A program made the position numbers and the translations under genes. Shown in pieces: positions 27,471-40,179 of a DNA stretch of 64,000 bases. Location of the stretch: NCBI GenBank assembly GCA_003220535.1, contig QHSU01000070.1, forward strand, positions 62,001-126,000, written 5' to 3'. This stretch comes from Candidatus Rokuibacteriota bacterium (lineage in GTDB: Bacteria > Methylomirabilota > Methylomirabilia > Rokubacteriales > CSP1-6). Each line of letters opens with the position of its first letter. Positions within the stretch are counted from its first letter, which is position 1. Below the pieces are notes generated by a model. The model was not told the DNA's origin. It searched no databases and worked only from the letters and a program-made list of their open reading frames with translations.

Positions 27471-28685
27471 ATGAAAGACGGGCTTCGGTTCGTCGACTGC
27501 GACATGCACATCATGGAGCCGGTGGATCTCTTCGACCGCTACCTGGATCCGCGATTCAAGGATCGCGTGACGACCACCGTGGGCGGTGACGGACAGCCGC
27601 GGCGGGGCACGATCGTGATCGACGGCTTGCCCACGACGATGGACGCCGAGTTGCAGCAATACCGGAAGCGGAGTCGCCCCGGCGTCACGCACAGCTCACA
27701 GCCCTTGTCGGGATCTCGCCTGGCCGACACCGGCCGGCTGGATTTCGCGATCGAGCGCAAGTACAACGCCGAGGCGCAGGTGATGGGCATGGCGATGGAA
27801 GGCGTCGACATCGCGGTGCTCTATCCGACGACCGGCCTGTCTTTGATCGCCCGCGACAATCTCGATCCGCGGCTCTCCCTGGCGCTCTGCCAGGCGTACA
27901 ACAACTGGATCCACGAGTTCTGCCAGTACAGCCCGCAGCGGTTGAAGTTCGTGGCGATGCTGCCCGTGCACGATGTGCACCTGGCCTGCCGCGAGCTCGT
28001 GCGTTGCGTGCGCGAACTCGGAGCGGTGGGGTCGTTCGTGCGCCCGAATCTCGTGAACGGGCACTTCTGGCACTCGAACTACTGGGACCCGCTCTATAGC
28101 CTGCACGAAGAGTTGAACGTCACCTGGGGATTCCACGAGGGCACCGGCGCCTGGTACTCACACATGAACGTGCTCTACGGTGAGAACCGCTTCTACCGTC
28201 ACGTCGCCAGCCACTGGATCGAGATGCAGCAGGCCCTGATCGCGATGATCATCGGCGGCGTCTTCGAGTTCCATCCCAAGCTCCGGGTGGGCTTCCTCGA
28301 GGCGCAGAACTCATGGGCGCCGGGCGTCCTGTCGCGCATCGAATGGGACTATCCCCAGTACCGTGACTCCCACGCCCCGTATCTTTCGATGACGCCGCGC
28401 GAATACTTCCGACGCAACTGCTGGGCCGCGGTGGAGGGGAGCGAGCCGGAGATCGAGGCGACGGCCGGGCTCATCGGCGCGGACCGGATGTGCATCTCGA
28501 CCGACTATCCGCACTTCGACTCCAACTTCCCGCACGTCTCGACGAATCTCCTGAAGAACGTGCCGCGTGAGATCGCGGCGCAGATCTTCATGGGCGGCGC
28601 TCAGCTCTACGCCTTCACGGAGAACGATTTCCGGAAGGCCGCCGAGGCGGCCGAGACGCACGGCGCGGTGCCCGCGCCCCGCTGA
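27471..28685 (+). CDS. Amidohydrolase family protein (amidohydrolase_2 TIM barrel)
   Basis: This 404-residue metal-dependent hydrolase or decarboxylase opens with FVDCDMHIMEPVDLFDRYLD, whose D-x-D-x-H replaces the D-x-H of classic amidohydrolases. A catalytic His follows near 225 (VTWGFHEGTG) and a metal-type Asp in RMCISTDYPHFDSNFP near 340. The ACMSD/gamma-resorcylate decarboxylase branch shows this same layout, so aromatic acid decarboxylation is as likely as hydrolysis. The ATG at 27471 has GAGAGGGGA upstream, preceded by the palindromic leader element. Confidence 0.9.
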   Translation: MKDGLRFVDCDMHIMEPVDLFDRYLDPRFKDRVTTTVGGDGQPRRGTIVIDGLPTTMDAELQQYRKRSRPGVTHSSQPLSGSRLADTGRLDFAIERKYNAEAQVMGMAMEGVDIAVLYPTTGLSLIARDNLDPRLSLALCQAYNNWIHEFCQYSPQRLKFVAMLPVHDVHLACRELVRCVRELGAVGSFVRPNLVNGHFWHSNYWDPLYSLHEELNVTWGFHEGTGAWYSHMNVLYGENRFYRHVASHWIEMQQALIAMIIGGVFEFHPKLRVGFLEAQNSWAPGVLSRIEWDYPQYRDSHAPYLSMTPREYFRRNCWAAVEGSEPEIEATAGLIGADRMCISTDYPHFDSNFPHVSTNLLKNVPREIAAQIFMGGAQLYAFTENDFRKAAEAAETHGAVPAPR

Positions 28686-38956: not shown

Positions 38957-39079
38957 CAAAATCCATCGTAGGCGAGGAGGGGTCCAGGCCCTCCAGGAAA
39001 AAAGGGCCTCTCAGCGCCTGGGGCCCAACGTGTGATATATCGCGAGGTAGGTCGCCAAGACCTGAGAGGAGATATCAAG

Positions 39080-39496
39080 GTGAGCGACATGAAGATCGAC
39101 ACGGTGCGATCGTCGAACAGCGGGGTCGTTGGCCGGGCCCTGAGCGAGGCCCGCGGCCACCGACTCGTCCTCGACTCGTCGTCACGGCCCCAGCCGGACG
39201 CCTTTACCAACAGCGAGGCGTTCCTGGCGGGCGTTTCGTCCTGCGGCGTCACCCTGATCGAGATGCACGCCAGGGAAACCGGCGTTCCCCTGAAGAGGAT
39301 CGATGTGACGATCGAGGGCGCGCGGAGCGCCGTCGAGCCGAATCGATTTTCCAGCGTCACCATGACGTTCGAGATCGGCGGCGTGAGCCAGTCCCAGGCC
39401 GACGAGCTCGTCGCGACGTATCGCGGGCGCTGACCGCTCTATCGCACGGTCGCAGGTGCGACCGACGTGAAGGTCCAGGTCGTGGCGGTGAAGTGA
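39080..39496 (+). CDS. OsmC-family peroxidase, probable selenoprotein (in-frame TGA as Sec118)
   Basis: The gene starts at GTG 39080 (AGGAG about 9 bases upstream; ATG 39089 is an alternative). It encodes an OsmC-like thiol peroxidase: NSEAFLAGVSSCGVTLIEMH with the first cysteine near residue 55, then KRIDVTIEGAR. At 39431-39433 a TGA stands where the family has its second cysteine. The same frame goes on as PLYRTVAGATDVKVQVVAVK to a TGA at 39494-39496, exactly completing the family's CPLYxTVA ending. Read through, the protein has 138 residues. A 7-bp hairpin with an AGGT loop follows the TGA at SECIS-like distance. OsmC-like selenoproteins are reported from marine metagenomes. A nonsense mutation or base error is the alternative. 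Confidence 0.75.
39434..39464 (+). promoter_or_regulatory. Candidate bacterial SECIS element
   Basis: Thirteen bases after the TGA, CGGTCGC (39447-39453) and GCGACCG (39458-39464) form a perfect stem with loop AGGT. The loop guanines lie 22-23 bases past the TGA, inside the range of bacterial SECIS hairpins that recruit SelB. A CAC/GTG pair with a bulge may extend the stem. The hairpin lies within the coding region, as required in bacteria. Confidence 0.65.
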
Positions 39497-39570: not shown

Positions 39571-40179
39571 GTGGACAAGCGGCGCTGCGCCTGGGCCAGG
39601 GGAGTGCTCGAGATCGCGTACCACGACCGGGAGTGGGGCGTGCCGCTCCACCGGGACCGGCGCCTCTTCGAGCTCTTGATCCTCGAAGGGGCCCAAGCCG
39701 GGCTCAGCTGGTCGACGATCCTGAAGAAACGCCCGGCGTACCGAAAGGCGTTCGATCGCTTCGACCCGAGCAAGATCGAGCGCTACACCGAGGCCCGCGT
39801 CCGGCGACTCATGAACGACGCCGGCATCGTGCGCAACCGGGCCAAGATCGAGGCGACGATCGCCAATGCGCGCGCGTTTCTGGCGGTGCGGCGCGAGCAC
39901 GGGAGCTTCGACGCCTACATCTGGCAGTTCGTCGGTGGCCAACCCGTGCAGAACGCCTGGCGCCGCTCGGGCCAGTGTCCGGCCGAGACCGACGCCTCGC
40001 GCGCGATGAGCCGCGATCTGGTCCGGCGCGGCTTCCGATTCGTCGGCCCCACGATCTGTTACGCTTTCATGCAGGCCACCGGCATGGTGAACGACCATAC
40101 CCGCGACTGCTTCCGGTGGCGCCAGGTCCGGGCGGCGCGCCGCCCATCGACGGTGAACGGGAGACTCGACAATGGCTGA
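39571..40179 (+). CDS. tag: DNA-3-methyladenine glycosylase I
   Basis: This 202-residue repair enzyme removes 3-methyladenine from DNA. The family's zinc site is visible: Cys in KRRCAWA near residue 6, His in YHDREWGVPLHRDR near 18, and the late pair in NDHTRDCF near 179-183. LILEGAQAGLSWSTILKKR near 37-55 is the signature helix, and FVGPTICYAFMQATGMVNDH is near 163. The start is GTG 39571. The frame overlaps the Rieske ferredoxin gene by 8 bases. About 75 bases separate it from the OsmC stop. Confidence 0.93.
   Translation: MDKRRCAWARGVLEIAYHDREWGVPLHRDRRLFELLILEGAQAGLSWSTILKKRPAYRKAFDRFDPSKIERYTEARVRRLMNDAGIVRNRAKIEATIANARAFLAVRREHGSFDAYIWQFVGGQPVQNAWRRSGQCPAETDASRAMSRDLVRRGFRFVGPTICYAFMQATGMVNDHTRDCFRWRQVRAARRPSTVNGRLDNG

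Follow-up and report, generated by a model that had tools for sequence, protein, structure and literature searches.

The locus and its reading frame

The window, i.e. the whole stretch of DNA analysed here, comprises 64,000 nucleotides (C157:62001-126000) of a genome of 7.18 Mb in 162 contigs, for which a completeness of 93.77% and a contamination of 8.15% are listed; the contamination was counted against the selenoprotein reading developed below. At 39080-39496 of the forward strand, the window carries a gene of the OsmC family, which starts with GTG and is preceded, 8 bases 5' of this codon, by a sequence that reads as a likely ribosome-binding site (AGGAG, 39067-39071). Its translation proceeds through 117 codons to a TGA at 39431-39433, continues for another 20 codons and ends at a second TGA at 39494-39496, just as the original prediction had described it. 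When 39080-39493 is read with TGA as selenocysteine (Sec, U), codon 118 is the one in-frame TGA, the product has 138 residues and the reading from the TGA onwards is UPLYRTVAGATDVKVQVVAVK. The match to the OsmC family of Pfam (PF02566; residues 39-132, E-value 2.5e-12, 47.5 bits with a cut-off of 27.5) spans the TGA.

Directly 3' of the OsmC gene, at 39571-40179, lies a methyladenine glycosylase gene (PF03352). We found this pairing in 14 of 67 loci, several of which are duplicates of one genome and many of which have flanks of about 1.5 kb or less, and all 14 belong to one genus. As the PF03352 neighbor is limited to the same genus, we rejected the operon context as an indication of function. 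Elsewhere in the window, 18 further frames of coding-like composition are interrupted by TGA, which makes 19 with the OsmC gene; examples begin at 28683 (+), 33446 (+) and 61586 (-). These 18 are probably for the most part ordinary stops or shadow frames.

Conservation of the in-frame TGA

An initial survey with a single-sequence search of 59 genomes yielded 27 matches in 26 genomes, each with one TGA. When a profile built from 29 sequences was subsequently run against 95 genomes of the phylum, 39 of them yielded a total of 40 matches. The matched sequences are all distinct, and each has TGA at the identical codon; cysteine was found in none. The carriers span 18 genera, but within the 95 genomes the matches are confined to one family and to one genome of another family in the same order; the remaining 56 genomes gave no match to the profile at an E-value of 1e-4. 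The genome from the other family holds two diverged copies (G037:C148:4322-4732 and G037:C285:680-1075). A pattern scan of genome contigs, whose reach is limited to close relatives, returned 12 loci, all titled Candidatus Rokuibacteriota; their coding sequences are identical to those of genomes already counted, so that they add names, but no counts.

The terminal stop of these genes behaves differently. Among the 39 unbroken genes, it is TGA in 23, TAG in 11 and TAA in five, which means that stops drift in these genes, unlike the first TGA. The remaining gene (L049, identical to L143; G082:C333) is the only one of the 40 that is closed by TAA two codons past the in-frame TGA (L049:3352-3363). 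Its DNA departs from the other sequences just past the TGA, which suggests that the gene is broken or that the DNA has been rearranged locally. We therefore excluded it from the synonymous-codon, dN/dS and recoding tests and from the two alignments A2 (with 29 of the 30 distinct sequences available at that stage) and A3 (39 of 40).

If the TGA were an ordinary stop, the protein would have 117 residues, and the downstream reading would be due to chance or represent the decayed end of a gene. The early closure of L049/L143 counts in favor of such a scenario, but the other evidence speaks against it. Besides the fixation of the first TGA next to varying terminal stops and the Pfam match that extends across it, the residues PLYRTVA that follow it are nearly invariant among relatives, and selection on the encoded protein is similar on both sides: the pooled dN/dS of the 39 sequences amounts to 0.364 in front of the TGA and to 0.504 past it, or to 0.412 past it when the hairpin codons described below are omitted. 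The same codons lower the synonymous change per site after the TGA from 0.458 without them to 0.331 with them. We thus consider an ordinary stop highly improbable. A sequencing or assembly error or a general reassignment of TGA appears more improbable still. It is true that the searched genomes are mostly multi-contig drafts and that the named relatives are titled as MAGs; however, a base-calling error is very unlikely given that the same TGA recurs in the genomes of 39 species from 18 genera, and a general reassignment is at odds with the 23 of 39 genes that use TGA as their terminal stop as well. On these grounds, we rejected all three explanations.

A constrained hairpin downstream of the TGA

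Thirteen bases past the TGA, at 39447-39464, the gene contains a SECIS-like hairpin with a stem of 7 bp (39447-39453 paired with 39458-39464) and the loop AGGT, in agreement with the original prediction of a 7-bp hairpin with a GG-containing tetraloop at this position. Counting from the T of the TGA, the loop begins at base 24. In the window gene alone, this hairpin is weak evidence, since a stem of at least 7 bp arose in 21% of the recoding trials, in which synonymous codons were drawn at random for this peptide; the 45-base stretch folds with a z-score of -1.96. We therefore rejected the single-sequence hairpin as proof and relied on constraint across species instead. With the broken gene omitted, a stem of at least 6 bp is present in 39 of 39 sequences and one of at least 7 bp in 35 of 39, compared to recoding means of 26% and 19%, respectively, although these sequences are related.

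This constraint is visible at the level of individual codons. Codons 123, 124, 127 and 128 (ACG GTC .. GCG ACC) show zero synonymous variation in 38-39 sequences, and codon 125 alternates only between GCA and GCG (entropy 0.48), a change that falls on the first loop base. By contrast, all of the 31 conserved degenerate codons 5' of the TGA vary, with a minimum entropy of 0.79 and a mean of 1.16. If codons were exchangeable, the chance that all five hairpin codons rank below all 31 would be 1 in 376,992, a value that is indicative given that the sequences are related. Codons 119 and 122, located past the TGA but off the hairpin, vary normally (1.14 and 1.15); codons 120 and 130 are low in entropy (0.34 and 0.65) and may belong to a longer element. 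The hairpin 3' of the TGA is hence under constraint at the RNA level.

The loop of the hairpin has the consensus RGNN across relatives, and its invariant G follows from residue 126, which is Gly, Ala, Asp or Val, all encoded by GNN codons. The core of the stem is invariant, so there is no covariation to count. Bacterial SECIS elements are described as having a small apical loop with a G (PMC1088965), and such a loop is present just 3' of the UGA in the window gene. Its position is also a common one: among 22 sampled TGA-bearing genes, consisting of OsmC paralogs and selD, the loop of the MFE hairpin starts 23-26 bases from the TGA in 20 (L094 and L099 are the exceptions), including all three sampled TGA genes from the source genome. 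A search of Rfam gave no match to the hairpin of the window gene.

Selenocysteine machinery

The source genome encodes selA, selB, selD and tRNA-Sec, and thereby bears out the expectation that the organism possesses the Sec machinery. The tRNA-Sec (C107:50131-50224) scores 69.8 bits with a cut-off of 47 and is confirmed by ARAGORN with the anticodon tca. On the same contig, selA (C107:47409-48764; 592.7 bits) adjoins selB (354.8 bits; cut-off 242.25), while selD is located at C1:110596-111537 (L089; 334.9 bits; cut-off 125). The selD gene holds an in-frame TGA of its own in the motif CAGUASK and corresponds to a Sec-containing SelD.

Among the relatives, selA exceeds the cut-off in 57 of the 59 genomes of the initial survey. 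At an E-value of 1e-7, tRNA-Sec was found in 80 of the 95 phylum genomes, among them 31 of the 39 carriers of the OsmC gene; the eight carriers in which it was not seen (G001, G005, G008, G029, G074, G078, G080 and G092) are all multi-contig drafts. In two of these, the selA search yielded no match (G029) or only a fragment (G005). Four genomes that already hold a stronger match contain a second one to the tRNA-Sec model, above the cut-off at 52-58 bits (G041:C49:3626-3723, G042:C18:9326-9423, G043:C3:50105-50202 and G037:C127:4890-4983); these may be either variants of tRNA-Sec or tRNAs of an unusual type.

Taken together, a TGA conserved in all 40 matches, a hairpin constrained at synonymous sites and the Sec machinery in the same genome uphold the proposal of a selenoprotein, and we regard it as almost certain that the UGA at codon 118 is read as Sec.

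Active site and fold

In alignments with Ohr/OsmC chains from the PDB, Cys55 (TGC, 39242-39244; motif CGVT) falls on the first and residue 118 on the second cysteine, and the same two columns are obtained with three plasmid-borne Ohr/OsmC-type genes and with E. coli OsmC. The TGA thus occupies the column of the second catalytic cysteine, as originally proposed: this column is TGA in all 40 matches from the phylum and cysteine in the distant Ohr/OsmC relatives, be they PDB chains or named genes. In Ohr, the peroxidatic Cys61 acts together with Arg19 and Glu51, with a catalytic role for the arginine, and the resolving residue is Cys125 (PMC5962072). In the 29 aligned sequences, Cys55 is invariant and Arg19 (39134-39136), aligned with the conserved arginine of two Ohr genes, is nearly so. 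Glu46 (39215-39217) is invariant as well, but it is offset by one column from the glutamate of the Ohr genes.

The structure predicted for the window protein (pLDDT 87.3) most closely resembles OsmC/Ohr structures. The best 50 Foldseek matches are, as far as they are titled, of the OsmC/Ohr type; the best of these has an E-value of 5.8e-10 and a TM-score of 0.66, with a high rmsd of 8 Å over the full chain. In this model, Sec118 directly precedes a helix formed by residues 119-127.

We also searched for close orthologs with cysteine in place of Sec. The profile search revealed none in the 95 genomes of the phylum, and neither did two queries against plasmids (E-values of 1e-5 and 1e-2). A third plasmid query returned 13 records of distant Ohr/OsmC-type proteins, of which four were examined, including the three aligned above. 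One scan of viral contigs found no relative.

Proposed mechanism

Based on these observations, we propose the following scheme. SelB and Sec-tRNA would read the UGA at 39431 as selenocysteine, aided by the hairpin at 39447-39464, to yield a product of 138 residues that contains both Cys55 and Sec118. If the chemistry parallels that of Ohr, Cys55 would attack an organic peroxide and be converted to a sulfenic acid. The latter would next be attacked by Sec118, which occupies the resolving position, to form an S-Se bond (selenenylsulfide), and a dithiol, possibly a lipoylated protein or a similar compound, would reduce this bond again. The roles of the two residues, the peroxidase activity and the reductant in this scheme are assigned by homology. 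It appears very likely that the protein is a selenoprotein that carries Sec at the second position and works in Cys/Sec redox chemistry; we are less sure about the division of labor between Cys55 and Sec118.

In thiol oxidoreductases, Sec usually resides at the attacking residue. It is hence conceivable that the roles are swapped, with Sec118 attacking and Cys55 resolving, or that the substrate is something other than a peroxide. The location of Sec118 just before a helix in the model is compatible with an attacking role, Sec occupies the first position in sister OsmC proteins, and the replacement of a catalytic cysteine by Sec is described in a recent review (PMC13188914). On the other hand, the invariance of an Ohr-type Cys55 and the near-invariance of Arg19 are what one would expect if the attack remains with Cys55. 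We consider such a swap, or a different substrate, rather unlikely and prefer the assignment of Cys55 as the peroxidatic and Sec118 as the resolving residue.

Evolutionary relationships and previous descriptions

The window gene is not the only candidate of its kind in its genome. Two further OsmC-fold paralogs have TGA at the first cysteine, L088:5617-6048 (-) (G000:C121:115617-116048) and L087:757-1131 (G000:C1:246757-247131), so that the source genome contains at least three candidate selenoproteins of the OsmC type. More OsmC-fold groups with TGA at the first cysteine occur in the phylum (L101, L104 and L155; L099 and L100). Since L099 and L100 are devoid of a cysteine at the usual second position (LSPVYD), they represent a Sec-only form.

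In a tree of 43 proteins, which included 12 of the 40 Sec-second sequences, the latter form one clade (support 93/86; recovered in 94% of the bootstrap trees) that is separate from the Sec-first groups. This topology indicates an independent origin of the two arrangements; in view of the long-branch warnings for this tree, we go no further than this indication. On balance, we lean towards the view that the Sec-second proteins constitute a separate lineage of OsmC-fold selenoenzymes, so far known only from the order of Rokubacteria, with Sec at the resolving position where their sisters have it at the peroxidatic one. Both positions would then have been selenated independently, with no close Cys ortholog left where we searched.

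We recognized no description of Sec at the second cysteine of an OsmC protein or of selenoproteins from Rokubacteria in a literature search that was conducted mostly at the level of titles. The papers retrieved for the pairing of Rokubacteria with selenocysteine or selenoprotein contain both words just once to a few times. The words OsmC, Ohr and Rokubacter are absent from the main text of the deep-Sep paper, and OsmC is absent from PMC1794560. A groundwater study, however, predicts 63 selenoprotein genes in a single Methylomirabilota genome, as cited in a 2026 review (ref. 66 in PMC13188914). This set could include the Sec-second OsmC family, so that its novelty in print is not proven. One current predictor may, according to its authors, miss selenoproteins without Cys homologs (PMC12013277).

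Comparison with known OsmC-type proteins

Among the known relatives, Ohr (TIGR03561; XfOhr) shares the fold, the two catalytic positions and the arginine column with the window protein. It differs in having cysteine at both positions, and the window protein scores 25.3 bits against the TIGR03561 model, below its curated cut-off of 88.85. E. coli OsmC (NP_415999.1) likewise aligns with the window protein at both cysteine columns, but has Cys instead of Sec there and is only 15% identical.

The closest known parallel with respect to selenium is the OsmC-like selenoprotein family from the Sargasso Sea/GOS metagenomes (NCBIfam NF041052, OsmC_like_Se). Like the window gene, it belongs to the OsmC superfamily, has one active-site cysteine replaced by a TGA-coded Sec and shows a hairpin past the TGA. 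The original prediction had invoked this marine family as a precedent. It has indeed been described, with the motif UxxT (tables in PMC1088965, PMC2398784, PMC9312934 and PMC13188914), but this motif fits Sec at the first cysteine. In the NF041052 members that we found, Sec is located at the first position, in a motif (AFULMT) that leads us to equate NF041052 with the published UxxT family, and the second cysteine is kept. All 22 matches over the cut-off in the 95 genomes of the phylum, one of them partial, have TGA at this first position. The window gene, by contrast, has cysteine at the first position (CGVT) and Sec at the second (UPLYRT), and is thus set apart from the marine family by where its Sec is placed, instead of being one more copy of that family. 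It scores 19.8 bits against the NF041052 model, whose cut-off is 95, so the Sec-second family is out of reach of the existing model for OsmC selenoproteins. The NF041052 member of the source genome is 13% identical to the window protein.

The paralog at C1:246757-247131, which we take to be YhfA-like, the label being our own, stems from the same genome and superfamily as the window gene and has its hairpin loop at base 23. It is 20% identical to the window protein and shows the reverse arrangement, with Sec at the first and Cys at the second position. The source genome thus offers a natural pair of proteins that share a fold but carry selenium at different active-site positions, one at the first and one at the second, by which the contribution of selenium to each half of thiol-peroxidase chemistry becomes measurable.
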